Assembly: GCA_026989655.1 (NCBI GenBank) | Contig: JALSIX010000139.1 | Span: 1-40,785, forward strand | Origin: Caldilineaceae bacterium | GTDB taxonomy: Bacteria; Chloroflexota; Anaerolineae; Caldilineales; Caldilineaceae | Direction: 5' to 3' | DNA length: 40,785 bases | Shown: piece after piece, positions 2,635-18,183 of the stretch | How the letters are laid out: each line of letters starts with the position of its first letter | How positions within the stretch are numbered: position 1 is the first letter of the stretch | Notes under the pieces: model-generated | The model's database searches: none | What the model was told of the DNA's origin: nothing | The model's input: the letters and a program-made list of their open reading frames with translations, nothing else | Made by a program: the position numbers and the translations under genes

Positions 2635-2946
2635 CTCCGTCTGTCTCCTTGTCCGTTGAGGCCACAGCGCCGGTTGCAATGCCCGGTGCGGGACAGCCCA
2701 GCTCCCCGGCCAGATCTGGGAGCACAGGGCCCACCGGACGACTCCTGCACCCACCCAAGGAGCTGGCCGGCCGCCATCGCTTTGCATGCCCAGTGTAGAA
2801 ACCCCCAGCCCCCCCTCAGGTCGCGAGCCCCGGCCCCCCGGAGGGCCATCCCAGACGGGAGAGCACACCCAGGTTCGGCCATCGACCCGCGGATCCCGTA
2901 ACCACTCTGGGGGCTGTCCTACAGAAAATGGCGTATGGCGATCGGA

Positions 2947-2976
2947 ATTATATGAAAGCCAGGGGGCACGACGCAA
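2947..2976 (-). promoter_or_regulatory. Predicted fabF promoter
   Basis: On the minus strand, TTGCGT (2976-2971), an 18-bp spacer and a perfect TATAAT (2952-2947). Transcription would start near 2940, giving an untranslated leader of about 300 nt before fabF. Confidence 0.55.
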
Positions 2977-3017
2977 AAAAACAACGGAAAGAACGAGTTC
3001 CCATCCCCTGGGAGGTG

Positions 3018-3026
3018 TGCTACAAT
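3018..3026 (+). promoter_or_regulatory. Extended -10 promoter of recQ
   Basis: TGC followed by TACAAT (3021-3026) forms an extended -10 element. No good -35 hexamer is visible, which extended -10 promoters tolerate. Transcription would start near 3033, about 78 nt before the recQ start. Confidence 0.55.
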
Positions 3027-3110
3027 GGCCCTGCGTGGACACGCCGCTGCTCCGGCGGCTCCAGCCATCGAGGAACCCACCGATTCCGGGCCGTGTCAAG
3101 CGGAACCCCC

Positions 3111-6100
3111 ATGGACGACACATCGCCATCCGACGGGACCAATGCCCCCGGCACGGTAGACGCCCTGGGCCTCTCCCCCGACCTGGTCGCCCACCTCCCG
3201 CCCGAACTCCGGGACGCCGTGTTGGACCACCTGGCTCACTGGGCCACCCCCCAGGAGCGGCTGTCCGTGTTGCAGCGCTGCCAGGAGGTCCAGGGCCCGC
3301 TGCTGGCCTTCCTGGACCGGGAGGCCCAGGCCCTTCTGGCCGAAGGCCGTCCCCAGGACGCCTTGGAGGTCATGGAACGCCGCCTGCGCCGCAGCGCCTC
3401 CCTGGCCGCCCGGACGTTCCACGCCCTTCTCCTGGCCATGGCCGGGCACCCCCAGGCCGCCCGCGCAGAGGCCCGAGACCTGGTGGCCGCCCACCCGGAC
3501 CATCCGACCGTGGTGTTGGCCGCGGCCCAGGTCTACAGGGCCCTGGAGGAGCTGGAGACGGCCCGCAGGATCCTGGAGCCCTTCCTGGAAAGCCATCCGG
3601 CCCACCCCGCGGCCACCATTGCCCTGGCCCAGGTGGCCCTGGAGGCAGGGGAGCGGGCCCAGGCCCTGGCCCTGGTGGAGCGGCTGGGCGGAGGCGTGCC
3701 GATGGACCTGGAGGTGCCCTGGCTGCGTCGGCTTCGGGAGCTGTGCCGGGCCCTGGGGCTGGAGCAGATGGTCCAGGGCCTCTCCCTGGCCCTGGCACAA
3801 CGCCGCACCCGCTCCTTGGAAGCCCTCCAGGAGGCCCTCTCCCCCGTCGTGGAGGCCCTCTCCCGGGGCCAGCAGCCGGATGCCATCTACCGACATCTGA
3901 GCGGGCCCGAGCGCATCGCCGTGGATCCCCAGGAAGCCCATCGGGTACGGCTGGCCGCCATCCGCCACTTCGGCTTCTCCGAGCTCCGGCCCGCCCAACT
4001 GGAGATCATGGCCTCCGTGCTTCGGGGGACCTCGGTGCTGGCCGTGTTGCCCACAGGAGCGGGCAAATCCCTCTGCTTCCAGCTCCCCGCGCTGCTGTTG
4101 CCCCGCGCCACCCTGGTCATCAGCCCCCTCATCGCGCTGATGAAGGACCAGGTCGAGGGCCTCCCGGCCGCGGTGCAGGCCGTGACCACCACCATCCACA
4201 GCACCCTGGGCGAGGAGGAGGTGCGCCGCCGGGTGACAGACGTGGCCCGAGGCGTGTATCGGCTGATCTACGTGGCCCCCGAACGCCTCCGCCAACGCCC
4301 TTTCCTGCGGGCCCTGCGGGAGGCCGGCATCAGCCTCTTCGTGGTGGACGAGGCCCACTGCGTGAGCCTGTGGGGCCACGACTTCCGGCCCGACTACCTC
4401 TTCATCCAGGAGGCCCGGGCCGAGCTCGGCAACCCCACCGCCCTGGCCATGACCGCCACCGCGCCGCCCCGCATCCGGGACGAGATCCTGGACCACCTGG
4501 CCGTGGAGGAGGACGGCCGCCCGGTGCGGCCCACGGTCATCGCGCTGGACATCTTCCGACCGAACCTCCACCTCTCCGCGGTCCGCTTCCACAGCGACGA
4601 GGAGAAGGTGGCCGCGCTCCTGGACTTCGTGGCCCGCACAGAGGGGAGCGGCATCGTCTACGCCAGCACCCGGCGGGGCTGCGAGAACCTGGCCCTACGC
4701 CTGCGGGGCGCCGGCATCCCCGCCGAGGCGTACCATGCGGGCCGAGGCGATCGCCACGCAGTCCAGGAACGGTTCATGCGAGGAGAGACCCGAGTGGTGG
4801 TGGCCACCGTGGCCTTCGGCATGGGGATCGACAAGGCCGACATCCGCTTCATCGTCCACTTCCACCCGCCCCGCAGCCTGGCCGCCTACTACCAGGAGGT
4901 GGGACGGGCCGGCCGGGACGGCATCCCGGCCCACTGCATCCTCTTCCACAGCCCCAACGACTGGGCAACCCTGCGCCGTTGGGCCCGAGCCGACGAGCTG
5001 GACCCGGACTTCCTGGAACAGGTCTACGCGGCCATCGCCACCCAGTTGGGTCGCTCCCCCGCGGCCCGGGGAGAGGACCGAGGGGGCAGCGGCCCGGTGG
5101 ATATCCGCCGGCTGGCCCAGGTCCTGGGTGGCGACGAGACCGCGATCCGGGTGGCCGTGAGCGTCCTGGAGCGGGCCGGCCTCATCGGCCGAGGGTTCGA
5201 CGTGCCCCAGGAGGTGACCGTGCACCTGAGCCCGGACCGGGAACGGATCCGCGCGGGCTGCCGGGGCCATCCCCATCGGATCCGCCTGGTGAAGCGCCTG
5301 GGCATCCGCCCAGGCCAGTCGGCCACCTTCCGGACCGCGGACATCGCCCAGGCCCTGAGATGGTCCCTGGCCGACGTGGAACGCCACCTGCTGGAGGCCC
5401 AGGCCCAGGGCGTGCTCCAGGTGCAGGGCCGGCGGCGGGCCATGTTCATCCACCTGCCCCCCCGGCCGCCCGATGCCCGCGAACGGCTGGAGCGGCTGCG
5501 AGACCACGCTCGCGCCGCGGCCCAACGCCGCATCGACGAGCTCATGGGCTACGCGACCACCGAGACCTGCCGCCATGGAGCCATCAGCGCCCACTTCGGC
5601 AGCCCTCCCCGGACCCGATGCACCGCATGCGACAACTGCACCGGCGCCCGGCCGGTGGTGCCCAGCCCCCGCACGGTGGCGCCCCTGCCCGACGAACAGG
5701 ACCTGGAACCCCTGATCCTGGACTGTCTGATGAGCCTGCCCAAACCCGTGGGCAAATCGGGCTTGGCCCGCATCCTGGCCGGCCACCTGCGAGCACCGGT
5801 CCAGGCCCACGAGTGCCGCCACTTCGGCAGGCTGGCCGGCCTGGGCGAGGTCGCCATCCGCCAGCGGGTGGACGATCTGCTGGAGCGCCATCTCCTGCGC
5901 ACCTACGAACACCGGGGCTACCCCGTCCTGGCCCCGACCCTCCGCGGCCGAGAGTTGGCCCAGGCCTGGCTGGAAAGGCACCCGGAGTGGGCCCAGCCGG
6001 GACCGGCCCCCACGGAAAGCCCCCAGGCACCCCGGCCCAGCCCGGCCCCGGAGGAGGAAGAGGGCCCCGCCTACACCGCGCTGCAACGGGCCCTCTATGC

Positions 6101-6623
6101 CTGGCGGCGACGCACCGCCCAGGAACAGGGCGTCCCGGCCTACGTGGTCATGGACAACGAGCTGATGTTCCGCATCGCGACCACCCGCCCCCAGACCCGG
6201 GAGGAGCTGGCCGCTCTGCCGGGCATGGGGCCCCAACGCCTCAGCCGATACGGGGAGATCCTCCTGGATCTGGTGAAGCTCCACCCCCCGGAGCCGGGGG
6301 ACGAGGCCCGGCTGGCCGGGCAGCAGGCCGCCTCTGAGGGGGAACGGCCCTCGCGCCCCGGGGCGGCCGAACGCCAGATCACCCTGCGCCTGCAGGAGCT
6401 GCGCCAGCGATTGGCCGTGGAGAGAGGGGTCGCCCCCTACCGGATCGCGAGCAACCGCCTGCTCCAGGCACTGGCCCGCCAGGCCCCCTCCAGCCCCGAC
6501 GCGCTGGCCCAGATCCAGGGCTTCGCTGCCAGCGGCCTGGCCGAACACGTGGACGCCGTGCTGGAGGCCATTCGACAGGGGCTGGCCTTCCAGGGTTCCT
6601 CCCAGGCCCAGACCGATCCCTGA
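3111..6623 (+). CDS. recQ: RecQ-family ATP-dependent DNA helicase with TPR-like N-terminus and two HRDC domains
   Basis: A 1170-residue 3'-5' DNA helicase for recombination and replication-fork repair. Residues about 60-210 form helical TPR-like repeats (ALEVMERRLRRS, AARAEARDLVAAHP, ARRILEPFLESHP) not found in ordinary RecQ. The helicase core follows: Walker A PTGAGKS with Lys319, DEAH at 413-416, motif III TATAPP, and motifs V-VI in AFGMGIDKADIRF and YYQEVGRAGRDG. The RecQ zinc cluster is intact at Cys820, Cys837, Cys840 and Cys843, followed by a winged helix. Two HRDC domains end the protein (about 985-1062 and 1086-1160). E. coli RecQ is about 610 residues. The ATG at 3111 is chosen because it follows the promoter; the frame is open further upstream. 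A strong hairpin lies after the stop. Paralogues with RecQ/WRN-like domain shuffling cannot be excluded. Confidence 0.92.
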   Translation: MDDTSPSDGTNAPGTVDALGLSPDLVAHLPPELRDAVLDHLAHWATPQERLSVLQRCQEVQGPLLAFLDREAQALLAEGRPQDALEVMERRLRRSASLAARTFHALLLAMAGHPQAARAEARDLVAAHPDHPTVVLAAAQVYRALEELETARRILEPFLESHPAHPAATIALAQVALEAGERAQALALVERLGGGVPMDLEVPWLRRLRELCRALGLEQMVQGLSLALAQRRTRSLEALQEALSPVVEALSRGQQPDAIYRHLSGPERIAVDPQEAHRVRLAAIRHFGFSELRPAQLEIMASVLRGTSVLAVLPTGAGKSLCFQLPALLLPRATLVISPLIALMKDQVEGLPAAVQAVTTTIHSTLGEEEVRRRVTDVARGVYRLIYVAPERLRQRPFLRALREAGISLFVVDEAHCVSLWGHDFRPDYLFIQEARAELGNPTALAMTATAPPRIRDEILDHLAVEEDGRPVRPTVIALDIFRPNLHLSAVRFHSDEEKVAALLDFVARTEGSGIVYASTRRGCENLALRLRGAGIPAEAYHAGRGDRHAVQERFMRGETRVVVATVAFGMGIDKADIRFIVHFHPPRSLAAYYQEVGRAGRDGIPAHCILFHSPNDWATLRRWARADELDPDFLEQVYAAIATQLGRSPAARGEDRGGSGPVDIRRLAQVLGGDETAIRVAVSVLERAGLIGRGFDVPQEVTVHLSPDRERIRAGCRGHPHRIRLVKRLGIRPGQSATFRTADIAQALRWSLADVERHLLEAQAQGVLQVQGRRRAMFIHLPPRPPDARERLERLRDHARAAAQRRIDELMGYATTETCRHGAISAHFGSPPRTRCTACDNCTGARPVVPSPRTVAPLPDEQDLEPLILDCLMSLPKPVGKSGLARILAGHLRAPVQAHECRHFGRLAGLGEVAIRQRVDDLLERHLLRTYEHRGYPVLAPTLRGRELAQAWLERHPEWAQPGPAPTESPQAPRPSPAPEEEEGPAYTALQRALYAWRRRTAQEQGVPAYVVMDNELMFRIATTRPQTREELAALPGMGPQRLSRYGEILLDLVKLHPPEPGDEARLAGQQAASEGERPSRPGAAERQITLRLQELRQRLAVERGVAPYRIASNRLLQALARQAPSSPDALAQIQGFAASGLAEHVDAVLEAIRQGLAFQGSSQAQTDP

Positions 6624-6766: not shown

Positions 6767-7447
6767 ATGGCAAGTCTTCTGGAGAAGGTCTCCACCCTCA
6801 TCTCGGCCAACCTCCACGCGCTGGTGGACCAGGCCCTGCAGAGCAACAGCCTGGCCGTGATCGACCACTACATCCGGGAGGTGGAGAACCACCTGGAGGA
6901 GCTGGAGGACGCGGCCGCCACCGTCGGTGGCGAGGTGCGCTCCATCCAGCGCAAGATCGCGGAGTACGAGCAGAGAGCCCAGGAGCTGGACCGGGCCATC
7001 GATGCCTTCCTGGTGGAGGGAAACGAGGAGTACGCGGCCGCAGCCCAGAGCAAGCTCAACAGCACCCAGCGCCTCATCGAGACCTATCGGGAACAGCTCC
7101 AGCGCCAGCAGGCCGAGTACGAGAAACTCCTCAGCGCGAAGGTCAAGCTGGAGGCCCGGCTCACCACCATGAAGCAGGAGCGGGAAGAACTGGCCGCCCT
7201 GCTGGAACTGGCCAAGAGCAAGGAGATCACCGTCAAGGCCATGGAGAGCCTGGACGATCTCATGGGCGCCGGGGACACGGACATCCGGCGCATCGCCGAG
7301 AGCATCTACAGACGGCTGGACAAGGCCACCGCGGCCAGCGAGATGCGCGCCGCCCGCCTGGACGAGGAGATGGACCGGGTCCTGGAGCGCAGCGCCATCG
7401 ACCGCCAACTGGAGGAGCGGAAGCGCCGGCTCGGCCTGGCCCAATAG
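6767..7447 (+). CDS. pspA: PspA/IM30 family membrane-stress protein
   Basis: A 226-residue PspA/IM30 protein, an ESCRT-III-like peripheral membrane protein that coats and protects the inner face of the cytoplasmic membrane. The N-terminal amphipathic helix (MASLLEKVSTLISANLHALVDQA) is typical, and nearly all the rest is coiled coil rich in Glu, Gln and Arg. The length matches PspA (about 220-230). The ATG at 6767 has an ideal AAAGGAGG ribosome binding site (6750-6757); the frame is open upstream to 6686 without a better start. It is the first gene of a plus-strand series encoding membrane-anchored proteins. No PspF activator and no sigma-54 promoter is visible, so control differs from that in enterobacteria. 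Confidence 0.93.
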   Translation: MASLLEKVSTLISANLHALVDQALQSNSLAVIDHYIREVENHLEELEDAAATVGGEVRSIQRKIAEYEQRAQELDRAIDAFLVEGNEEYAAAAQSKLNSTQRLIETYREQLQRQQAEYEKLLSAKVKLEARLTTMKQEREELAALLELAKSKEITVKAMESLDDLMGAGDTDIRRIAESIYRRLDKATAASEMRAARLDEEMDRVLERSAIDRQLEERKRRLGLAQ

Positions 7448-7535
7448 CCCCGGGAGCAGGCGTCGGGGATGGACTTCCCTCCTGCCCGTCTCCGGCACCT
7501 GCCCCTCCACCACCCAACCCGGGACTTCCGTCACC

Positions 7536-7859
7536 ATGCGTGGATATCTGCCCCTCATCGCCATGGCCGTGCTCATCCTGGTGGTGCTCGGCGCCTTCTT
7601 CTGGATCGTCCAGGAGGCCCGGGAAGCCCTGCCCCGCTCGGACGAGATCATCTCCGTCCGCCAAGCTGCGGACCTCATCCGGGACGGAGAGGTGGCCCGT
7701 GTCCTCATCCAGGAAGAGCGGGACGTCTTCCTCTACCTGCCCGACCGGGCCCGCCCCCTCTACACCCGGCTGGAGCCCGGCACCACCTTCACCGAGACCT
7801 TTCAGGCCCTGGGCGTGCCCCCCACCCTGTTCCCGCCCCTGACCGTCGAGGCCGACTGA
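7536..7859 (+). CDS. Stand-alone FtsH extracytoplasmic-domain protein
   Basis: A 107-residue protein with one membrane span at the N-terminus (about residues 5-25) and a short extracytoplasmic domain. The segment ISVRQAADLIRDGEVARVLI, followed by a short beta hairpin and FTETFQALGV, resembles the N-terminal region of FtsH proteases (FtsH_ext). The AAA ATPase and zinc-protease parts are entirely missing, and the gene ends after the domain, so this is not a protease. In FtsH this domain contacts partners and substrates outside the membrane; here it may be a membrane adaptor. It lies 88 bp behind pspA and 14 bp before the next gene. I see no strong ribosome binding site. The domain call rests on sequence resemblance only. 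Confidence 0.65.
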   Translation: MRGYLPLIAMAVLILVVLGAFFWIVQEAREALPRSDEIISVRQAADLIRDGEVARVLIQEERDVFLYLPDRARPLYTRLEPGTTFTETFQALGVPPTLFPPLTVEAD

Positions 7860-7873
7860 ATGGGTAGACCGAC

Positions 7874-9130
7874 ATGACCCGAACCCGCCTGATCTTCGTC
7901 GCCATCGTCGCCGTGGCCCTCCTCATCGTGGCCGTCTCCCTGGTCTGGCGGGCCGCCACGGGCAACCCGGCAGATGCAGGGCTCACCGTGGAGCGCCCGG
8001 AAGAGATCACCGTGCGGGTGTTGGTGGCCCTGCCCGTGGAGCCCTGGGTCCGGGCCGCGGCCGAGCGGTTCAACCGCTCCGGGCCCACCGTGGAGGGGGC
8101 CGCGGTCCAGGTGGAGGTCATCGCCATGGACGGCCTGGTGGCCCTGGGCAAGTGGGACCGCAACGACTTCGGCGCCCTGTCCGCCAACGTGGATCCCCAG
8201 GAGCTCCAGCCGGAGGAACGGGCCCGGCTGGCGGACTTCCCCACCGCCTGGATCCCGGACAGCCGATACCTGGTGGAGCTGGCCAACGTGCCCTACAAGG
8301 AGCGGCTGGGCCGGGACGTCTTCCTCACGGACGGCACCTACCGGGCCCGTCCCATCGCCATCAGCCTCTTCACCTGGGGCATCTACGAGAGCCGGGCCCG
8401 GGTGCTCCTGGAGCGCTTCGGCGAGATCCGATGGCGCACCATCCACGACGCGGCCGTGGCCCCAGGGGGCTGGCCCGATCTGGGCGGCGACCCAGCCTGG
8501 GGGTTCTTCAAACTGGCCGTGCCCGACCCCCGGAAGAACGTGGGCGGGCTGGCCGCCATGATCGCGGCCGCGGGCGAGTACTACGGCCGCACGGACATCT
8601 CCGTGGAGGACGTGACCGACCCCGAGTTCCAGCAGTGGCTGGGCGAGCTCATGGGCGCGGTGACCAACATCAGCGGCGGCAGCGCCTACACCGCAGAGGA
8701 CTTCGCCCTCTTCGGCTACAGCGTGGGCGACGGCGGCCAGCTCCTGGAAAGCGACCTGCTCCAGAACATGCAGGGCATCGTCACCCATTGGGAGGAGCCC
8801 CTGCTCCTCTTCTACCCGGAATTCGTCACCTGGTTCGACTTCCCCTTCTCCATCTGGATGGGCCCAGAGACCACCGCCCTGGAGAAGAACGCGGCCCTGG
8901 CCTTCCAGCGCTACCTCCTGTCCCAGGAGGAGCAGAAGGCCGCCCTGGCCTTCGGCCTCCGCCCGGCCAACCCAGAGGTCTCCGTCACCGCCACCGAGGA
9001 CAGCCTCTTCGTGAGATGGGCCGACCGCGGGGTGGAACCCGTGGTGCCCCGGACCACGGCCATGCGGCCCCCGGGCCGGGACGTGCTCCTGACCCTGCTG
9101 CGTTGGTACGAGCTCAACGTGGTGCGCTGA
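7874..9130 (+). CDS. Membrane-anchored extracellular substrate-binding-like protein
   Basis: A 418-residue protein with an uncleaved-looking membrane anchor (about residues 5-24, RLIFVAIVAVALLIVAVSLVW) and an external domain resembling bacterial extracellular solute-binding proteins. Features are the opening beta strand EITVRVLVALPVEPWVRAAA followed by a helix, and the late segments FPFSIWMGPETTALEKNAALAFQRYLLS and QKAALAFGLRPANPEV, which resemble the C-terminal lobe of such proteins. There is no lipobox. No permease or ATPase is nearby. The next gene carries the same kind of fold fused to a VWA domain, so the two probably arose by duplication and may form a complex. The ligand is unknown. 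It starts 14 bp after the previous stop, as in an operon. Confidence 0.7.
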   Translation: MTRTRLIFVAIVAVALLIVAVSLVWRAATGNPADAGLTVERPEEITVRVLVALPVEPWVRAAAERFNRSGPTVEGAAVQVEVIAMDGLVALGKWDRNDFGALSANVDPQELQPEERARLADFPTAWIPDSRYLVELANVPYKERLGRDVFLTDGTYRARPIAISLFTWGIYESRARVLLERFGEIRWRTIHDAAVAPGGWPDLGGDPAWGFFKLAVPDPRKNVGGLAAMIAAAGEYYGRTDISVEDVTDPEFQQWLGELMGAVTNISGGSAYTAEDFALFGYSVGDGGQLLESDLLQNMQGIVTHWEEPLLLFYPEFVTWFDFPFSIWMGPETTALEKNAALAFQRYLLSQEEQKAALAFGLRPANPEVSVTATEDSLFVRWADRGVEPVVPRTTAMRPPGRDVLLTLLRWYELNVVR

Positions 9131-9140
9131 GGTGAGGGCC

Positions 9141-10925
9141 ATGGCTCGTCGCTCCCGCCCCTCTGGCCGCCCCCCCGGGGGCAGAGGACGCCCCCGCCGG
9201 ACCCTCTGGCTGGGACTGGGCCTCTTCACGGTCCTTCTGCTGCTCCTGTGCAGCATCAGCGGCGCATGGTGGCTCGCCCGATGGCTGACGGGAGGAGCCG
9301 AGGAGGCCGGCCCGGCCAACCCGGCCCCCACCTGGCCCCCGGACAGCCCGGTCCTCTCCGTGGCCGTCTCTCCGGTCATGTTGCCCACCCTCCAGGAGCT
9401 GGCCGCGGCGTTCAACGCCCAGGAGCTCACCGCCCCCGACGGCCAGACCCTGCAGATCCAGGTGCGTCCCCTGGTCCCCGAGACCATGGTGACCCGGGCC
9501 CTGGAGGCCCCTTCCTTCCAGGCCCTGGTGCCCGACAGCAGCATCTGGCTGGACCTCCTGGACCGCCAGTGGGCCCAGCGCCACGCCCCCCCGGGGAACA
9601 CCAACGCCCTTGCGGCCCTGATCCCGCCCCGCCGGGTGGCGGCCCACGTCCGCTTCGCGGTCAGCCCCCTGGTCATCGCCGCCTGGGAGGACGTGGCCCA
9701 GGAGCTGGGCTGGCCCCAGCAGCCGGTGAGCTGGAGCACCGTCCAACGCAAGGCCGTGGAGGACCCGACCTTCCGCTGGAGCCACCCCAGCACCCAACAC
9801 GCGGCCGGCCTCCTGGCCACCCTGGCCGAGTTCTACGCGGGCGCCGGCCTGACCCGAGGCCTGGACGAGACCCTGGCCACCCAGCCCCACGTGCTGGACT
9901 ACGTCCGCACCATCGAGGCCACGGTCCAGTTCTACGGCGAGAGCGAGGATGTCCTGGTCCAACGGCTGGCCGAGGAAGGCACCCAGATCGTGGATGCCTT
10001 CGTGGCCCAGGAACAGACGGTCATCGCGTGGAACCGACGGCAGCCCCAGCGGCGGCTGGTGGCCCTCTATCCTGCAGAGGGCACCCTGTGGGTGGACCAT
10101 CCCCTGGCCCTGCTGGAGCTGGGCGCGGAGGACGAATCCCCCGTCACCGACAACCAACGCCGCGCCTTCCAGGCCTTCAGCCAGTTCCTCACCCAGCCCG
10201 ACACCCAACGGCGCCTCCTGGAGCGGGGCTATCGGCCCACCCACCCAGATCTGGCCCTGGATGAGCCCGGCAGCCCCTTCGTGGACACGGACACAGTGGA
10301 CCCCCGCCAGCCGGCCACCGCCCTCCAGATCCCGCCGGCCTCGGTGGTGGAGGTGGTGCGCAACGTCTGGTGGTACACCAAGCGCCCTACCAACGTCTTC
10401 CTGGTGGTGGACACCAGCGATTCCATGTCCGGCGACAAGCTGGACGCCACCCGACAGGCCCTCCGGGCCTTCGTGGACCAGATCCGCGGCCCCCGGGACC
10501 GGGTCGGCCTGGTGGACTTCGGCTCGGGGGTGAAGCGTGTGGTGCCCCTCCAGCCCATGGACGAAAGGGGCCGAGCGAACCTCTTCCCGGTCATCGATTC
10601 CCTGGAGGCCGACGGCTACACCGCCCTGGTGGACGGGGTGATGGCCGCGTACCAGGCCCTACAGGACGCGAACGACCCAGAGGCCATCAACGCCATCGTG
10701 GTCATGACCGACGGCCAGGAGAACAACAGCCGCTACGACATGGGAGACCTGGCCCGGGCCATGCAGGCGGGCCGGATCCCCGTGCTGATCTTCACCATCG
10801 GCTTCGGCGACGACGCGGACGAGGTGCTGCTGCGGCAGATGGCGGAGCTGGGCCGGGGCCAGTTCCGCTGGGCCAGCGAGGCCGATCTCCAACAGCTCTA
10901 CCGGATTATCTCCACCTACTTCTGA
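9141..10925 (+). CDS. Substrate-binding-like domain fused to a VWA domain, membrane-anchored
   Basis: A 594-residue protein. A basic cytoplasmic tail (RRSRPSGRPPGGRGRPRR) precedes one membrane helix (about residues 20-45). An extracytoplasmic solute-binding-like region of about 350 residues follows, with the same C-lobe pattern (RRAFQAFSQFLTQPDTQRRLLERGYRP) as the preceding protein. The C-terminus is a von Willebrand A domain with a complete metal site: DTSDS at 424-428 and the Asp of TDGQ at 524. VWA domains bind protein partners through a divalent metal. ATG 9141 is preferred over an in-frame GTG at 9132 because GAGGTGAG lies 5 nt upstream. The gene starts 10 bp after the previous stop. Such binding-protein/VWA fusions are known in bacteria, but the function of the family is not established. 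Confidence 0.82.
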   Translation: MARRSRPSGRPPGGRGRPRRTLWLGLGLFTVLLLLLCSISGAWWLARWLTGGAEEAGPANPAPTWPPDSPVLSVAVSPVMLPTLQELAAAFNAQELTAPDGQTLQIQVRPLVPETMVTRALEAPSFQALVPDSSIWLDLLDRQWAQRHAPPGNTNALAALIPPRRVAAHVRFAVSPLVIAAWEDVAQELGWPQQPVSWSTVQRKAVEDPTFRWSHPSTQHAAGLLATLAEFYAGAGLTRGLDETLATQPHVLDYVRTIEATVQFYGESEDVLVQRLAEEGTQIVDAFVAQEQTVIAWNRRQPQRRLVALYPAEGTLWVDHPLALLELGAEDESPVTDNQRRAFQAFSQFLTQPDTQRRLLERGYRPTHPDLALDEPGSPFVDTDTVDPRQPATALQIPPASVVEVVRNVWWYTKRPTNVFLVVDTSDSMSGDKLDATRQALRAFVDQIRGPRDRVGLVDFGSGVKRVVPLQPMDERGRANLFPVIDSLEADGYTALVDGVMAAYQALQDANDPEAINAIVVMTDGQENNSRYDMGDLARAMQAGRIPVLIFTIGFGDDADEVLLRQMAELGRGQFRWASEADLQQLYRIISTYF

Positions 10926-10929
10926 CACC

Positions 10930-11808
10930 GTGCCCATGGCCACCCGGACGGAACTCCAGCGACGGGCCCAGAGCCTCCTCATCCAGTACGCGCTCTTCCG
11001 CTGGGAGAACGCGATCCTCCTGGGGCTGACCCTGGTGCTCACCGTCCTCTATCCCCGGCCCTTCCCCTGGTGGCCCGGCTGGGGATGGCCGGCCCTGGGC
11101 CTCCTGGGCGTGGCCTTGGTGATCTACACCAGCCTCACCGACACCCAGGCCAATGGCCGGATCCTGGTGGCACTGCTGCAGGAGGAGTACACCCCCCGCA
11201 CCCTCCGCCACCCTGGCCTCCGCGCCGAGGTGGAGAGGGCCCTGGACTACCAACGCCGCATCGAGGAGCAGATCCGCGCCCAACGCCCGGGCATCCTGCG
11301 AGACCGGCTGGAGGACACCGCCGGCCAGATCTGGGAGTGGGTCCGCTCCATCCACGAGCTGGCCCGACGCCTGGACGGGTACCTGGCGGAACGCCCCAGC
11401 CCTGAACAGCGCCAACATCTGCGCCAGGAGCTCCGGGACCTGGAGGCCCAGCTCCGGCTGGAGACCAACCCGGAGACCCGGAGGCAGATCCAGGAGGTCC
11501 TGGCCGCCAAGCAGACCTACCTGGAGACCCTGGAGGCCCTGGAGGAACGGATGGAGCAGGCACGTCTCCAGATGGACCAGAGCCTCACCGCGCTGGCCAC
11601 GGTCTACAACCAACTCCGTCTCATCGACGCCCAGGACGTGGCCAGCGGCCGGGCCGAACGCCTCCGGGCCGACATCCAGGAGCAGATCCAGCGCCTGGAT
11701 GACCTGGTGGCCAGCCTGAACCAGGTGTACGGGACCCGGTTCGACCGACCCATGCCTGCCGCGGACCCTGGAGCCGTGGCCGGCGCCCCAGGGGACACGA
11801 ACCCCTGA
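10930..11808 (+). CDS. Two-helix membrane protein with long coiled-coil tail
   Basis: A 292-residue protein of unknown function. Two membrane helices near the N-terminus (about residues 27-44 and 52-70) form a hairpin, so the long remainder should lie in the cytoplasm. That remainder is helical and charged, with coiled-coil character over about 85-265 (for example QEVLAAKQTYLETLEALEERMEQ). The tail ends in a Pro/Ala-rich segment. Translation may start at GTG 10930 or at ATG 10936; neither has a good ribosome binding site, and coupling to the preceding gene (stop at 10925) is likely. A cytoplasmic coiled coil tethered to the membrane, encoded with PspA, could be a docking partner for PspA; that is inference. 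Confidence 0.7.
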   Translation: MPMATRTELQRRAQSLLIQYALFRWENAILLGLTLVLTVLYPRPFPWWPGWGWPALGLLGVALVIYTSLTDTQANGRILVALLQEEYTPRTLRHPGLRAEVERALDYQRRIEEQIRAQRPGILRDRLEDTAGQIWEWVRSIHELARRLDGYLAERPSPEQRQHLRQELRDLEAQLRLETNPETRRQIQEVLAAKQTYLETLEALEERMEQARLQMDQSLTALATVYNQLRLIDAQDVASGRAERLRADIQEQIQRLDDLVASLNQVYGTRFDRPMPAADPGAVAGAPGDTNP

Positions 11809-11885: not shown

Positions 11886-13049
11886 ATGGCCAATCCCATC
11901 GCGATGCCTCGACACCTGCGTATCCTCCACCTCCTCCTGTTGGCGCTTCTGCTGGCGGCCTGTGGCGGGGGCTCCCGCCCCACCCGGGGCGACGCGATCG
12001 TCTACGTGGCCGTCCCCCTGAGCGGCTTCCAGGCCAACGGCGGCCAGACCGTGTTGGGTGGGGTGCGGCTGGCCGCCGCGGAGGTCAACCTCCAGGGCGG
12101 CCTCCTGGGCTACCGGGTGGTGGTCCACCCCCTGGACGACGAGTCGGACAGCGACACGGCCGTGGCCAACCTGGAGACCATCCGCCAGGCCCTGGACCGG
12201 GGCGACCGGGTGCTGGGCGTCATCGGCCACCTGAACAGCGGCCAGACCGAGGCCACCCTGCCCCTCTACGACGAGCTGGGGTTGCTGGTCATCACCCCCA
12301 CCGCATCGGAACAGAGCCTGACCCGCCGGGGGTACACCCACTTCTTCCGGGTGAACGCCCACGACGGCATCCAGGCCCAGGTGGACGCCCGCTTCCTGGT
12401 GGAGACCCTGGGCGCGACCCGGGTCGCGGTGCTCCACAACGACACCGGCTACGGCCGCGGACTGGCCGACTCCCTGGTCCAGGAGCTGGAGGCCCGGGGC
12501 GTCCAGGTGGTCTACCGGGCCCAGGTGGCCGAGGGCCAGAGCGACTTCCAGGCCATCCTGCCGGAACTGCGGGCCACCGCGCCCGACGCCCTCTTCTACG
12601 CGGGCTACGAGATCGAGGCCCCCTACCTGCGGGCCAGCCTGGTGGAGGCCGGCCTGGATCTGCCCATGCTGGCCAGCGACGGCGCGTTCCTGGCCGCGAC
12701 CATCGACGAATCCAACGGCACGGCCGAGGGGATGTACGTCAGCGCGTTCGCGCCCAGCCCCCAGAACGTCGCGGACGCCCGCTGGATCGAGGCCTACCAG
12801 GCGGTGGAGTACCGGGACCCGGATACCTACTCGGTGAACGGCTACGTGGCCATGCAGGTCCTGGCCGAGGGCGTGCGCCGGGCCGACTCCCTGGAGCGAC
12901 AGGCCGTCCTGAAGGCCCTGCGGGAGGGCGCGATCCCCACGCTCCTGGGGCCCCTGCGCTTCGACGGCAATGGGGATCTGGTGAACCCCCGCATCTGGAT
13001 CTATCGGGTGGAGGGGGGCGAGTTCCGCCAGGTGGCCGAGCTCCCCTGA
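11886..13049 (+). CDS. LivJ-like ABC transporter substrate-binding lipoprotein
   Basis: A 387-residue protein of the branched-chain amino acid/amide binding family (type I periplasmic binding fold). The signal peptide ends in a lipobox LLAAC, so the protein is lipid-anchored outside the membrane. Typical segments are VAVPLSGFQANGGQTVLGGVRLAAAEVN, VLGVIGHLNSGQTEATLPLYDELGLLVITPTAS and VAVLHNDTGYGRGLADSLVQELEARG. Length and order fit LivJ/UrtA-like proteins. The ATG at 11886 follows GTAGGAG. No livHMGF permease or ATPase genes are nearby, so its transporter is elsewhere or it works as a sensor. It may be the last gene of the pspA cluster (77 bp behind the coiled-coil gene). The ligand cannot be told from sequence. 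Confidence 0.88.
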   Translation: MANPIAMPRHLRILHLLLLALLLAACGGGSRPTRGDAIVYVAVPLSGFQANGGQTVLGGVRLAAAEVNLQGGLLGYRVVVHPLDDESDSDTAVANLETIRQALDRGDRVLGVIGHLNSGQTEATLPLYDELGLLVITPTASEQSLTRRGYTHFFRVNAHDGIQAQVDARFLVETLGATRVAVLHNDTGYGRGLADSLVQELEARGVQVVYRAQVAEGQSDFQAILPELRATAPDALFYAGYEIEAPYLRASLVEAGLDLPMLASDGAFLAATIDESNGTAEGMYVSAFAPSPQNVADARWIEAYQAVEYRDPDTYSVNGYVAMQVLAEGVRRADSLERQAVLKALREGAIPTLLGPLRFDGNGDLVNPRIWIYRVEGGEFRQVAELP

Positions 13050-13465: not shown

Positions 13466-14986
13466 GTGGGTGCGCGACGAGGCCATGAGGTCATCCAACG
13501 ACTGCGGGAGACCCCCCCGGAGCTGTGGCACCGGGGAAAGCGGGTGGAGGATCCCACCACCGAACCCGGGCTGGCCAACGGCGTGCGGAGCCTGGCCCGG
13601 CTCTACGACCTCCAGTGGGAGGAGCCGGACGTCATGCTCTTCGACTCGCCCACCACAGGCCAAAAGGTGGGCCGCTCCTTCATGATCCCCAGGACCCAGG
13701 AGGAGCTGGCCAGCGTGGGGGAGATGATGATGCGCTGGGCCCGGGCCACCTTCGGCATGATGGGTCGAGCGCCGGACTACCTGAACCGGGCCATCTCGGC
13801 CTATGCCGGCGGCGCGGACTTCCTGGCCGAGCCGGATCCCCGCTTCGGCGAGAACATCCGCCGCTACCACGAGTACATGCGGGAGAACGACCTCTGCCTG
13901 ACCCACACCCTCATCAACCCCCAGATCAACCGCAGCGTGGGGCCCGCCCGACAGAAGGACCCCTTCCTGGCCGCCCGGGTGAAGGAGGAGACCGATGCCG
14001 GCATCGTCATCCGGGGGGCCCGCATGTTGGCCACCCTGCCCATCTCCGACGAGATCATGGTCTTCCCCTCCACCCTGCTCAAGAGCGCGGAGGAGGACGC
14101 GCCCTATGCCTTCGCGTTCGCCATCCCCAACAACACCCCGGGCCTGCGTTTCATCTGCCGGGAGACCGTGGACTACGGACGCACCCCCTACGACCATCCC
14201 CTGAGCGCCCGCTTCGAGGAGATGGACGCGGTGGTGATCTTCGACGACGTCTTCGTGCCCTGGGAGCGGGTCTTCCTCTACCGAGATGTGGAGCGCTGCA
14301 ACCAGGCCTACCACGCCACCGGCGCGGTGGTCCACATGAGCCATCAGGTGGTGTGCAAGAACATCGCCAAGACCGAGTTCCTGCTGGGGCTGGTCTCCAT
14401 GATGGTGGACGCCATCGGGGTAGAGCGCTTCCAGCACATCCACGAGAAGGTGGCCGAGATCTGGGTCACCCTCCAGACCATGAAGGCCTTTCGCCGGGTC
14501 GCGGAGGTGGATGCCGCGCCCAACGCCTACGGCGTCATGTCCCCGGCCTGGGATCCCCTGGACGCGGCCCGGAACCTGTACCCCCGGCTCTACCCCCGGC
14601 TGATCGAGATCGTGCAGCAGATCGGCGCCAGTGGGCTGGTGGCCATGCCCACCTGGGCCGACGTAACCGGCCCCCTGGCCGAAGACATCATGAAGTACTA
14701 CCAGAGCGCCCGTCTGGAGGCCCGAGAGCGCATCCCCCTCTTCCGCCTGGCCTGGGACACGGCCCTCTCCGCCTTCGGCTCCCGCCAGGTGCTCTACGAG
14801 CGCTTCTTCTTCGGCGACCCGGTGCGCATGGCCGGCGCGCTCTTCCACAGCCACGACCGCAGCCAGTACATGGAGATGGTCCGGGAGTTCCTCAAGCAGA
14901 CCATCGAGGAGATGGAGCAGGAGGGGGCAAGCCCCACGGCCCCGGTCCCCACATCCGGCGACGGCGCGAAAGGAGGTGACGCGTGA
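13466..14986 (+). CDS. hpaB: 4-hydroxyphenylacetate 3-monooxygenase, oxygenase component
   Basis: A 506-residue flavin-dependent monooxygenase of the HpaB family. It hydroxylates 4-hydroxyphenylacetate to 3,4-dihydroxyphenylacetate using reduced FAD supplied by a separate reductase (HpaC), which is not encoded in this window. The N-terminus MGARRGHEVIQRLRETPPELW matches the family start GARTGxExIxRL. Other family segments are LTHTLINPQINR, FRFICRETVDYGRTPYDHPLS-like wording and DDVFVPWERVFLYRD. The GTG at 13466 is chosen over the out-of-frame ATG at 13461; AAGGAGGAG (13452-13460) precedes it. The gene overlaps the next by 4 nt. Related HpaB proteins hydroxylate other phenols or 4-hydroxyphenylacetyl compounds, but the downstream genes support 4-hydroxyphenylacetate. 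Confidence 0.9.
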   Translation: MGARRGHEVIQRLRETPPELWHRGKRVEDPTTEPGLANGVRSLARLYDLQWEEPDVMLFDSPTTGQKVGRSFMIPRTQEELASVGEMMMRWARATFGMMGRAPDYLNRAISAYAGGADFLAEPDPRFGENIRRYHEYMRENDLCLTHTLINPQINRSVGPARQKDPFLAARVKEETDAGIVIRGARMLATLPISDEIMVFPSTLLKSAEEDAPYAFAFAIPNNTPGLRFICRETVDYGRTPYDHPLSARFEEMDAVVIFDDVFVPWERVFLYRDVERCNQAYHATGAVVHMSHQVVCKNIAKTEFLLGLVSMMVDAIGVERFQHIHEKVAEIWVTLQTMKAFRRVAEVDAAPNAYGVMSPAWDPLDAARNLYPRLYPRLIEIVQQIGASGLVAMPTWADVTGPLAEDIMKYYQSARLEARERIPLFRLAWDTALSAFGSRQVLYERFFFGDPVRMAGALFHSHDRSQYMEMVREFLKQTIEEMEQEGASPTAPVPTSGDGAKGGDA

Positions 14987-15867
14987 AGGAGCTGCGGGGC
15001 TCCATCGTTCCCATCGTCACGCCCTTTGCGGACGGCCAGGTGGACTACGATCGCCTGGTCGGGCTCATCGAGTGGCAGATCGAGAGCGGCTCCCACGGCA
15101 TCTCCGTCACCGGCACCACCGGCGAACCCAGCTCCCTCACCCTGGAGGAGCGGAAACAGGTCATCCAGGTGGCCTGCCAGGCCGTGGCCGGGCGGGTGCC
15201 CTTCGTGCCGGGCACCGGCTCGGTGAACCACCGGGAGACCCTGGAGCTCACCCGCTACGCGGAGAAGGTGGGCGCGGACGCGGTGCTGGTCATCGCGCCC
15301 TACTACGTGCGCCCCAGCCAGGAGGGGCTCTTCCGCCACTTCGACGCGGTGGCCAAGAGCGTGGAGATCCCGGTGATCCTGTACAACATCCCCGGCCGCA
15401 CCGGGGTGAACATCGAGATCGACACCGTGGCCCGGCTGAAGGAGGCCAACCCCAACATCGTGGGGGTCAAGGAATCCAACAAGGACTTCGAGCACATCAA
15501 CCGGCTGCTCCACCGCATGGGGCGGGAGTTCCTGGTCTACTCCGGGATCGAGCTCCTCTGTTTCCCCATCCTGGCCATCGGGGGCGCGGGGTTCGTCAGC
15601 GCGACGGGCAACCTGCTGCCCCACAAGGTGGCCGAGCTCTACAACCGGGTCCAGGAAGGGCAGTGGAAGGAGGCCCAGGACCTCCACTACTGGCTCATGC
15701 CCCTGAACGACGCGGTCTTCCTGGAGATCAACCCGGTGCCCGTGAAGACCATCCTGGGCCTGATGGGCAAGATCCGACCGGAGGTGCGGCTGCCCTTGGC
15801 CCCTGTATCGCCGGAGAACCGGGCGAAGCTGGAGGCCCTGGCCCGCCAGTATGGACTGATCCAGTGA
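14983..15867 (+). CDS. DapA-family (dihydrodipicolinate synthase/N-acetylneuraminate lyase) aldolase in the hpa operon
   Basis: A 294-residue Schiff-base aldolase of the DapA/NAL family. Visible residues are the GTTGE motif (44-48), Tyr134 in LYNIPGRTG, Arg139, and the Schiff-base Lys163 in GVKESNKD. All of these are conserved in true DapA, so 4-hydroxy-tetrahydrodipicolinate synthase activity in lysine synthesis cannot be excluded. Its position inside the hpa operon, overlapping hpaB by 4 nt (GTGA) with a full AAAGGAGGTGA ribosome binding site, argues for a catabolic pyruvate aldolase. It could take the place of HpaI, the metal-dependent aldolase that normally splits 2,4-dihydroxyhept-2-enedioate into pyruvate and succinic semialdehyde. 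That role is inferred from context. Confidence 0.85.
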   Translation: MKELRGSIVPIVTPFADGQVDYDRLVGLIEWQIESGSHGISVTGTTGEPSSLTLEERKQVIQVACQAVAGRVPFVPGTGSVNHRETLELTRYAEKVGADAVLVIAPYYVRPSQEGLFRHFDAVAKSVEIPVILYNIPGRTGVNIEIDTVARLKEANPNIVGVKESNKDFEHINRLLHRMGREFLVYSGIELLCFPILAIGGAGFVSATGNLLPHKVAELYNRVQEGQWKEAQDLHYWLMPLNDAVFLEINPVPVKTILGLMGKIRPEVRLPLAPVSPENRAKLEALARQYGLIQ

Positions 15868-15877
15868 GCACACGCCT

Positions 15878-16624
15878 ATGAAACTCGCCCGCTTTGCCTA
15901 CAACGGCCGGATCTACCAGGCCGTCTACGAGAGGGAGCAGCTCTGGGTGGGCTCCGTGGCCTTCGACCCCCAGGAGGTCCAGTGGCTGCCACCGGTGGCC
16001 CACGTGGGCAAGGCCATCGGTGTGGCCCTGGGCTACGCGGACCATGCCGCGGAGCTGGGGCTGGACCTGCCGCCAGAGCCCATCCTCTTCCAGAAGATGA
16101 CCAGCTCCTTCATCGGCCACCGGGCGGCCATCGTCGCGCCGCCCCACGTGGAGTACATGCACTACGAGGCCGAGCTGGTGGCCGTCATCGGCCGGCCTGC
16201 CCGCCGGGTGAAGGCCGAGCACGCCCTGGACTACGTGCTGGGCTACACCATCGGCAACGACGTGACCGTGCGCGACTTCGTGACCAACTACTTCCGCCCC
16301 CCCATCAAGGCCAAGGGCTTCGACACCTTTGGCCCGGTGGGGCCCTTCCTGGTCACCGCAGACCAGGTGGACCCCACGGAGCTGGGGGTCCGGACCTACG
16401 TGAACGGGGAGCTGCGCCAGGAGGGCAACACCCGCCACCTGCGCCACAGCGTGGCCGAGCTGATCGAGTACATCTCCGCGTTCATGACCCTGGAGCCCGG
16501 CGACATGATCTGGACCGGCACGCCCGAGGGCCTCTCCCACATCTACCCCGGCGACGTGGTCCGCTGCGAGGTGGACGGCCTGGGCGCGCTGGAGAACCCG
16601 GTCATCGGAGAGGAGGCACCATGA
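15878..16624 (+). CDS. hpaG: Fumarylacetoacetate-hydrolase family decarboxylase/isomerase
   Basis: A 248-residue enzyme of the FAA hydrolase fold, in the homoprotocatechuate pathway most likely 5-oxopent-3-ene-1,2,5-tricarboxylate decarboxylase and/or 2-hydroxyhepta-2,4-diene-1,7-dioate isomerase. The divalent-metal ligands are visible as Glu97 and Glu99 in HYEAELVAVIG and Asp128 in YTIGNDVTVRDF. The late motif DMIWTGTPEGLSHIYPGD is also typical. E. coli HpaG is a two-domain duplication of about 430 residues; here there is one domain, as in many Gram-positive and thermophile homologues. The gene starts 10 bp after the aldolase and ends with an ATGA overlap into hpaE, so translation is probably coupled. 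Confidence 0.88.
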   Translation: MKLARFAYNGRIYQAVYEREQLWVGSVAFDPQEVQWLPPVAHVGKAIGVALGYADHAAELGLDLPPEPILFQKMTSSFIGHRAAIVAPPHVEYMHYEAELVAVIGRPARRVKAEHALDYVLGYTIGNDVTVRDFVTNYFRPPIKAKGFDTFGPVGPFLVTADQVDPTELGVRTYVNGELRQEGNTRHLRHSVAELIEYISAFMTLEPGDMIWTGTPEGLSHIYPGDVVRCEVDGLGALENPVIGEEAP

Positions 16625-18162
16625 GCACTGCCCCCCCCAGCCCGGAGGCGGTGGAGAACCGGGCCAAGGCCGAGGCCCTCCGGGCCCGCCTGGCCCAGCG
16701 AGGCATCCGCCACTTCATCCGCGGCCAAGAGGTGGACTCCGTCTCCGGCCAGACCTTCGAGACCTGTTCGCCGGTGGACAACCGGCCCATCTGTCCAGTG
16801 GCCGCAGGGGACGCCCAGGACATCCACCGGGCGGCCCAGGCGGCCCGGGAGGCCTTCCCGGCCTGGCGGGACCTGCCGGCCCGGGAGCGGAAGCGGCTGC
16901 TCCACCGGGTGGCCGACCTCATCCAGGAACGGGCCGAGGAGATCGCGCTCCTGGAGAGCCTGGACACCGGCCAGCCCATCCGCTTCATGAGCAAGGCCGC
17001 CATCCGGGGCGCGGCCAACTTCCGCTTCTTCGCGGACCGCTGCGAGAGCGCCCGGGACGGCCTCAGCCTGCCCACCGAGCAGTTCCTGAACTACACCGTC
17101 CGCCAGCCCATCGGCCCGGTGGGGGCCATCACCCCCTGGAACACGCCCTTCATGCTCAGCACGTGGAAGATCGCGCCGGCCCTGGCCGCGGGCTGCACCG
17201 TGGTCCACAAGCCCGCGGAGTGGAGCCCGGTCACCGCGGCCCTGCTGGCCGAGATCCTCCACCAGGCCGGGATCCCCGCCGGCGTGGTCAACACCGTCCA
17301 CGGCTTCGGGGAGACCGCGGGCCGGGCCCTGACCGAGCACCCGGAGATCCGGGCCATCGCCTTCGTGGGCGAATCCGCCACCGGCAGTGCCATCCTCCGC
17401 CAGGGCGCCGAGACCCTGAAGCGGGTCCACTTCGAGCTGGGGGGCAAGAACCCCGCGGTGATCTTCGAGGACGCGGACCTGGACCGGGCCGTGGACGGCA
17501 CGGTCTTCATGATCTTCAGCCTGAACGGCGAACGCTGCACCTCCAACAGCCGGGCCCTGGTCCACCGCAGCCTCTACCCGGCCTTCGTGGAACGGGTCGC
17601 GGAACGGGCCCGAAACATCCGGGTGGGCGATCCCCTGGACCCGACCACCGAGGTGGGGCCCCTGATCCACCCGGACCACGTGGCAAAGGTCCTCTCCTAC
17701 ATCCAGATCGGCCAGCAGGAGGGGGCCACCCTGGTGGTGGGTGGCCAACGGCTTCAAGAGGGGGCCCTGGCCCAGGGGAACTACGTGGCCCCCGCGGTCT
17801 TCGCGGACGCGGCCAACCACATGCGCATCGCCCAGGAGGAGATCTTCGGCCCAGTCCTCACCGTCATTCCCTTCGACGACGAGGAGGAGGCCCTGGCCCT
17901 GGCCAACGGGGTGAAGTACGGCCTGGCCGCCTATGTGTGGACCCAGGACGTGGCCCGAGCCCATCGGTTCTGCCAACGGCTTGAGGTGGGCATGGTGTGG
18001 GTCAACTCCCACAACGTACGCCATCTGCCCACCCCCTTCGGCGGCATGAAGGCCAGCGGTATCGGCCGGGACGGCGGCGACTACAGCTTCGACTTCTACA
18101 TGGAGACCCAGAACATCGCCATCGCACTGGGCCCCCATCCCATCCCGAGACTCGGCACCTGA
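16621..18162 (+). CDS. hpaE: 5-carboxymethyl-2-hydroxymuconate semialdehyde dehydrogenase
   Basis: A 513-residue NAD(P)-dependent aldehyde dehydrogenase. In this pathway it oxidises the ring-cleavage product 5-carboxymethyl-2-hydroxymuconate semialdehyde. The catalytic set is complete: Asn174 in TPWNTPF, Lys197 in VVHKPAEWSP, Glu272 in FELGGKNP and nucleophile Cys306 in NGERCTSNSR, with the FVGESATG cofactor loop near 248-255. The frame is open far upstream, but ATG 16621 overlaps the hpaG stop (ATGA) and has an AGAGGAGG site. The protein has about 25 residues more at the N-terminus than E. coli HpaE (488 residues). General aldehyde dehydrogenase activity on other substrates remains possible. 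Confidence 0.9.
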   Translation: MSTAPPSPEAVENRAKAEALRARLAQRGIRHFIRGQEVDSVSGQTFETCSPVDNRPICPVAAGDAQDIHRAAQAAREAFPAWRDLPARERKRLLHRVADLIQERAEEIALLESLDTGQPIRFMSKAAIRGAANFRFFADRCESARDGLSLPTEQFLNYTVRQPIGPVGAITPWNTPFMLSTWKIAPALAAGCTVVHKPAEWSPVTAALLAEILHQAGIPAGVVNTVHGFGETAGRALTEHPEIRAIAFVGESATGSAILRQGAETLKRVHFELGGKNPAVIFEDADLDRAVDGTVFMIFSLNGERCTSNSRALVHRSLYPAFVERVAERARNIRVGDPLDPTTEVGPLIHPDHVAKVLSYIQIGQQEGATLVVGGQRLQEGALAQGNYVAPAVFADAANHMRIAQEEIFGPVLTVIPFDDEEEALALANGVKYGLAAYVWTQDVARAHRFCQRLEVGMVWVNSHNVRHLPTPFGGMKASGIGRDGGDYSFDFYMETQNIAIALGPHPIPRLGT

Positions 18163-18183
18163 CACCAGAGGAGGAGGTCGGCC

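Follow-up and report, generated by a model that had tools for sequence, protein, structure and literature searches.

How PspA systems detect trouble is poorly understood beyond a few model bacteria. In B. subtilis, the YdjFGHI system holds PspA at the membrane through integral partners (PMC8581546). The catalogue of PSP partners (PMC11237479; PMC9239133) lists PspA together with AAA ATPases, Band-7 proteins, two-component systems and one context with a PBPB-OmpA protein and an ABC transporter. Among permease-less binding proteins, the actinobacterial GlnH-GlnX-PknG system comprises a binding lipoprotein, a helical transmembrane adaptor and a cytoplasmic effector, with an amino acid as ligand (PMC6069109, PMC9769921).

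The locus presented here lies in a stretch of 40,785 nucleotides from a Caldilineaceae bacterium (contig JALSIX010000139.1), referred to as the window throughout; its contig belongs to a 4.09 Mb genome of 150 contigs. The five genes at 6767-11808, all on the plus strand, were confirmed, and their consecutive arrangement as described in the initial annotation is borne out by the coordinates. The boundaries of the proposed five-gene unit were slightly off, however: judged by gene order in relatives, the conserved core is PspA, a solute-binding-fold protein (SBP), an SBP-VWA fusion, a membrane coiled coil (CC) and a LIV-type lipoprotein. The latter, at 11886-13049 and thus past that interval, had been missed, while an FtsH_ext-like gene had been wrongly included. 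From PspA to CC the intergenic gaps measure 88, 14, 1 and 4 bases, and CC is separated from the LIV gene by 77 bases. Because the gaps of the block measure just 1 to 88 bases, the stretch from PspA to LIV is likely a single transcript; a promoter scan returned no match to a sigma-70-like promoter. On balance, we favor the reading that this block encodes a membrane complex which couples an extracellular binding-protein module to an exchangeable cytoplasmic output, here PspA.

The neighborhoods of CC-bearing relatives were mapped together with 80 named loci from an SBP-based genome scan (the best 80 of 129), nearly all of them metagenome-assembled and with approximate gene starts. Every named locus with a stated phylum or class belongs to the Chloroflexota, and 51 of these best 80 of 129 comprise PspA, SBP, SBP-VWA, CC and LIV, complete and in this order. 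Confinement to this genome would have spoken against the unit, but the arrangement is kept in many Chloroflexota families. MAGs named Litorilinea aerophila are among its carriers. L200 and L201, which belong to the phylum but to other families outside the class, also possess the entire set. Most of the 29 incomplete loci are truncated by contig ends. Fifteen of the 29 lack PspA: six end at a contig edge (L136, L150, L158, L159, L180, L192), six have WD40/kinase genes in its place (L141, L142, L145, L149, L152, L155), and three keep the SBPs, with PspA absent from the 3.6-10 kb upstream and no kinase seen (L183, L189, L196). The other 14 are without CC and/or LIV, and all of them end <4 kb downstream of SBP except L199, in which an SPFH gene is present and LIV absent. 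L180 is also without LIV and L183 without CC, though contig room remains in both. Across 59 loci, every neighbor family outside the core was limited to 13 loci at most, while the core genes were present in most, which is more than expected by chance. Of 400 genomes sampled across the phylum, 38 contained a relative of SBP (1e-20 or better), and just five of these scored >370 bits. Six loci of genus g6 (L101, L102, L105, L106, L108, L110) carry inserted small genes of toxin-antitoxin-like appearance (PIN-like and antitoxin-like, by eye), with the core order intact.

The first core gene (6767..7447, plus strand) encodes a PspA/IM30-family (ESCRT-III-like) protein of 226 aa (PF04012 PspA_IM30, 2.5e-18, 66.9 bits, cut-off 33.9), the sole PF04012 match in its genome. 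It falls outside the proteobacterial PspA equivalog TIGR02977 (31.4 bits against a cut-off of 242.95). In a quick tree that raised long-branch warnings, the cluster PspAs formed a clade of their own (99% SH-aLRT), apart from the remaining PspAs of related genomes. The CC-paired PspAs of loci lacking SBPs joined this clade, and the tested PspAs of G078, G094, and G096 fell outside of it. Based on this tree, the window PspA is part of a separate lineage that goes with CC. In seven of the 80 named loci (L156, L167, L169, L170, L171, L173, L174), a further, strongly diverged PspA lies next to the first; these copies form one clade (100% SH-aLRT). NfeD is found in three of the 80, and SPFH, whose partnership with PspA marks YdjFGHI-type modules, in four, with none in the window block.

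The FtsH_ext-like gene (7536..7859, plus strand) encodes 107 aa with one transmembrane helix, predicted in 10/10 rows, and an FtsH-like extracellular domain, whose Pfam FtsH_ext score of 13.3 bits stays under the cut-off of 25.5. Both the AAA and the M41 protease domain are absent by Pfam, and the product is thus not an FtsH. It aligns to the N-terminal ends of full-length, FtsH-sized frames found in relatives (up to 9e-9), and three full-size FtsH-type frames are located elsewhere in the window genome. The gene is present in 9/80 named loci, with close homologs in only 10 other genomes, all of one family. Consequently, we rejected it as a core gene and regard it as a local accessory rather than as the complex member it had been taken for. 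Limited to few genera, such a stand-alone protein might tune FtsH. PDB sequence searches with PspA, SBP, CC, and the FtsH_ext-like protein delivered nothing useful.

The genes around the block are more variable. Immediately 5' of PspA, the 65 of 80 loci that bear it show a STAND-type NTPase in 26 cases, RecQ in 12, a REC-histidine kinase in six and other genes or a contig edge in 21. The STAND-type NTPase carries a C-terminal Trans_reg_C winged helix (e.g., L070:5742-7103, and 26 of the loci L120-L199) and its position makes it a candidate for a dedicated PspA-cluster regulator. Permease, ATPase and known Psp regulator are indeed absent from 6767-11808, as had been stated; however, since relatives carry a STAND NTPase or REC-histidine kinase upstream, the statement on ATPases and regulators holds for the window and not for the clusters of its relatives. 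None of PspB, PspC, PspF or LiaFRS was found among the Pfam-scanned neighbors in the window, which sets the locus apart from a classical psp/lia operon. In the window itself, PspA is preceded by a RecQ-type helicase (2928-6623) that combines TPR repeats at its N-terminus with HRDC domains in two stretches and is kept 5' of PspA in window-family relatives, and by a 515 aa frame without Pfam family (1354-2901), with matching frames 5' of RecQ in some same-family loci. RecQ was rejected as a partner, as it precedes PspA in window-family loci only (12/65 PspA-bearing loci). Downstream of the block, 13466-19176 holds aromatic catabolism genes (HpaB hydroxylase, DHDPS family, FAA hydrolase, glyoxalase/dioxygenase superfamily). 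LIV was not assigned to these 4-hydroxyphenylacetate genes because it follows CC in relatives with different downstream genes. A defense system was likewise dismissed, PADLOC having returned weak coiled-coil matches only. In some loci, a small protein with one transmembrane helix and often a C-terminal zinc ribbon is encoded just 5' of SBP (L100:5702-5920, L111:11338-11640, L114:5975-6262, L220:8585-8875). It appears LiaI-like by eye alone, the Pfam matches being sub-threshold and mostly to zinc ribbons.

Three core genes encode the putative extracellular module. SBP (7874..9130, plus strand, 418 aa) is the best conserved gene of the block, with 60-80% identity to 30 relatives and about 100 invariant columns. 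While Pfam gave 17.1 bits (cut-off 27), the structure model (pLDDT 82.6) obtained 206 PDB matches at E<=0.001, the best being 5um2 (E 2.1e-10). By this match to solved class II proteins it possesses a class II solute-binding fold, and it resembles sulfate-, maltose-, and polyamine-binding proteins with TM-scores up to 0.68. A single N-terminal transmembrane helix, predicted in 30/31 rows, would anchor it. SBP-VWA (9132..10925, plus strand, alternative ATG at 9141, 597 aa) follows directly 3' of SBP in 79/80 named loci, the remaining one ending at a contig edge, and joins an N-terminal transmembrane anchor to SBP_bac_11 (1.7e-12) and VWA (8.2e-20) domains. According to cross-matches its SBP part is distantly related to SBP, and its VWA part is closest to ITIH4, CLCA, and TRAP domains. 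On the plus strand, the conserved columns DxSxS (10410-10424), T (10620-10622), and D (10710-10712), spanning 10410..10712, constitute what we take to be the MIDAS metal site of the VWA domain. All five residues are identical in 33/33 SBP-VWA rows, which marks the domain as a VWA with MIDAS, and metal contacts are implied by this invariance. LIV (11886..13049, plus strand; Peripla_BP_6 1.3e-51) has the amino-acid receptor 3ip5 (E 4.6e-58) and the LIV-binding protein as closest solved structures. Its Cys26 is at least 90% conserved, and 23/28 rows show a lipobox-like motif. S118, Y241, and D265 are invariant and align in or beside segments of 3ip5 that presumably contact the ligand in LIV-type proteins.

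CC (10930..11808, plus strand) is the proposed adaptor. Its model (pLDDT 87.1) comprises short membrane helices at residues 25-40 and 52-70, i.e., an N-terminal two-helix hairpin, followed by long helices of a putative cytoplasmic domain. The hairpin is predicted but not certain, because a simple hydropathy scan of 41 CC rows calls two transmembrane helices in 25 and one in 15, and none in the window CC. Searches revealed no Pfam family, no PDB sequence match and no PDB fold match, and PspA did not match a model of the CC cytoplasmic part; kinship of CC with PspA or with a known fold is thus unsupported. CC occurs in 55/100 relatives and in 27/42 sampled families (as read from the table). The coiled coil encoded in SBP/SBP-VWA loci of other families of the phylum is a homolog of CC (hhalign 97.8%, E 1e-12).

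The favored reading draws on two swaps of the cytoplasmic partner, each of which counts as a single event. The first is seen in a WD40/kinase clade that comprises eight loci, seven of which were in the tree (100/98), and that branches from within the PspA-linked loci. Here a WD40 gene replaces PspA, together with a kinase gene in L141, L142, L145, and L152, where the contig is long enough, and without a kinase in L149 and L155. PspA is absent genome-wide in 8/8 genomes of the clade and present in 5/5 sisters. While SBP, SBP-VWA, and LIV keep their scores, CC drops to 178-209 bits (linked median 379). This divergence is found in the cytoplasmic part, with identities of 0.22-0.28 against 0.39-0.50 in the membrane part (ratio 1.48-2.23). 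PspA-linked CCs, in contrast, show 0.49 for the membrane and 0.47 for the cytoplasmic part (ratio 0.92-1.22; n=45, a reference set without the window CC and without 11 rows that were odd, fragmentary or from pairs), and the PspA-bearing sisters have cytoplasmic identities of 0.48-0.51. Since the replacement of PspA is one evolutionary event, the CC divergence is one event across seven rows as well. L136 combines an intermediate CC (cytoplasmic 0.33) with genome-wide absence of PspA, and is a modest test because this absence was checked after the CC value had been seen. The genome of L188 lacks a PF04012 match, yet a partial PspA at the contig start matched a custom profile. In the reciprocal check, two of four PspA-CC pairs without adjacent SBPs had a membrane/cytoplasm ratio below the linked range, which is half the expected signal and weak. 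CC thus looks like an adaptor, to judge from these identities: its conserved membrane half would face the binding proteins, and its cytoplasmic half would be specific to the effector.

Upstream of SBP, the PspA-less L141, L152, L145, L149, and L155 contain WD40 genes, in part with a Ser/Thr kinase, a PP2C phosphatase and a small VWA protein (Pfam: Pkinase in L152 and L145; WD40 in L141, L149, and L155; PP2C_2 in L141 and L152; VWA in L141). We take these genes to resemble the TerY-type phospho-signaling triads (VWA-PP2C-kinase).

The receptor module reaches beyond the PspA-linked loci. Four genomes from a different family of the phylum (f61) encode proteins in which a zinc ribbon, a Ser/Thr kinase (PF00069, 1e-42 to 1e-43 on all four) and a hydrophobic stretch are joined to a C-terminal SBP homolog, and these kinase-SBP fusions adjoin SBP-VWA (L203:7687-10212, L204:7829-10318, L205:9244-11661, L219:9502-11793). 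By this arrangement, the external module is paired with kinases too. Further families of the phylum hold a triad of SBP, SBP-VWA, and CC-homolog without adjacent PspA, although 9/10 such genomes encode PspA elsewhere; the external module plus CC therefore either predate the PspA link or extend beyond it. Like L183, L189, and L196, which keep the SBPs without PspA, these families weigh against the favored reading.

Such kinases bear on the strongest competing explanation, which we nevertheless consider unlikely: SBP folds that have lost ligand binding could, together with the VWA domain, simply hold wall or surface polymers, while a CC-PspA scaffold stiffens the membrane. The invariant VWA metal site and the anchoring of every external part would suit such a structure, as would PspA, NfeD (3/80), and SPFH (4/80), which point to membrane scaffolding. 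However, kinase-SBP fusions and kinase genes in the place of PspA fit signaling better, and LIV stays close to amino-acid-binding structures with its key positions invariant.

How closely CC follows PspA was assessed across 100 relatives, of which 52 possess both, three CC alone, four PspA alone and 41 neither (phi 0.86; the rows share kinship, so that counts are not independent and Fisher values are not readable as probabilities). Phi is 0.58 for CC-SBP and 0.51 for PspA-SBP. The contigs of all three CC-alone genomes end inside the block (G004, G011, G087), and PspA alone was found in G070 (contig edge), G078, G094, and G096. The second swap concerns genus g8, in which 16/17 genomes lack CC and PspA genome-wide, and 15 of those 16 keep SBP. 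In the eight g8 loci mapped, SBP-VWA always follows SBP, LIV is present in five, and the small transmembrane/zinc-ribbon gene precedes SBP, persisting after the loss of PspA and CC. With 417-545 bits the g8 SBPs score lower than other complete copies (about 680-790), and they form long branches beside G038, the sole g8 member with the full set. That the block is a mere co-transcription of surface and membrane genes without direct partnership appears quite improbable to us, since CC tracks PspA over and above the neighborhood (phi 0.86 vs. 0.58), PspA-CC pairs exist without SBPs, and, where PspA is lost, CC changes in the cytoplasmic part alone. Least of all do we expect the binding proteins to serve ABC permeases encoded elsewhere while PspA guards the membrane during uptake: by fold and family they do belong with ABC binding proteins, and one published PspA context contains an ABC transporter alongside a PBPB-OmpA protein (PMC11237479), but neither permease nor transport ATPase is a conserved core neighbor in the gene maps, as an ABC importer would have it, SBP, SBP-VWA, and kinase-SBP are transmembrane-anchored, and VWA is not a transport part.

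We therefore return to a complex that couples external binding to an exchangeable output. Its outside would consist of two anchored class II SBP-fold proteins, one with a VWA metal site, and a lipid-anchored LIV-type protein. CC would span the membrane and present its long helical domain inside, where the dedicated PspA would dock. As trigger one might envision ligand occupancy, or a lost contact of VWA to wall or surface polymer; candidates are an amino-acid-like ligand via LIV, some ligand via SBP and the metal-dependent VWA contact. The change outside would then pass through the CC membrane helices, and PspA would be recruited or released, oligomerise, and shield or remodel the membrane, an action that we infer from its family. 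Likewise, we infer complex formation, the role of CC as PspA dock, the ligands, and the direction and trigger of the signal. The earlier proposal that external binding is relayed across the membrane to PspA gains comparative support from gene order, CC-PspA co-occurrence, CC divergence restricted to the cytoplasmic part and kinase-SBP fusions, while the share assigned to FtsH_ext did not hold. More tentatively, and with somewhat less than even expectation, one might speculate about a ligand-gated, bacterial ESCRT-III-like system, in which a binding-protein/VWA receptor works through a modular CC tuned to the installed effector, be it PspA remodeling or Ser/Thr phosphorylation.

If true, membrane maintenance would respond to nutrient or surface signals, beyond damage alone. 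The block is widespread in Anaerolineae, an abundant yet little-known class, and supplies a testable adaptor (CC) as well as candidate ligand sensors. Moreover, it represents a natural experiment, with a constant input module, an exchanged cytoplasmic partner and an adaptor altered on the matching side only. The set of SBP, SBP-VWA, CC, and LIV was not found in the searched portions of the PSP partner catalogue (PMC11237479; PMC9239133), in which 'Chloroflex' and VWA are absent from the 2022 main text and 'vWA' from that of 2024. Among the open-licence literature searched, no paper joined Chloroflexota with PspA and none described such a PspA/SBP/VWA/coiled-coil operon.

Compared to known systems as described, the block shares features with several. 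Ser/Thr kinases fused to solute-binding or ANF-receptor domains (PMC1262709) are the same kind of fusion as in L203-205 and L219; however, those are reported as single proteins of Streptomyces and Nostoc, with no neighboring SBP-VWA gene and no connection to a PspA cluster. YdjFGHI keeps PspA at the membrane in the manner proposed here, and SPFH is linked in some relatives of the block as well, but that system is described without binding proteins or VWA, and YdjG/H (zinc ribbon, TPM) without a shown relation to CC (PMC8581546). GlnH-GlnX-PknG likewise combines a permease-less binding lipoprotein with a helical adaptor and a cytoplasmic effector, and the kinase variants of the block are alike in plan. 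By described topology, however, GlnX has four transmembrane helices and external helical bundles (PMC9769921), whereas CC combines two predicted membrane helices with an internal coil, and the block differs further in its three binding proteins, its VWA domain and its PspA output. Taken together, the proposed coupling of binding proteins to PspA looks like a so far undescribed wiring of the outside to membrane maintenance.
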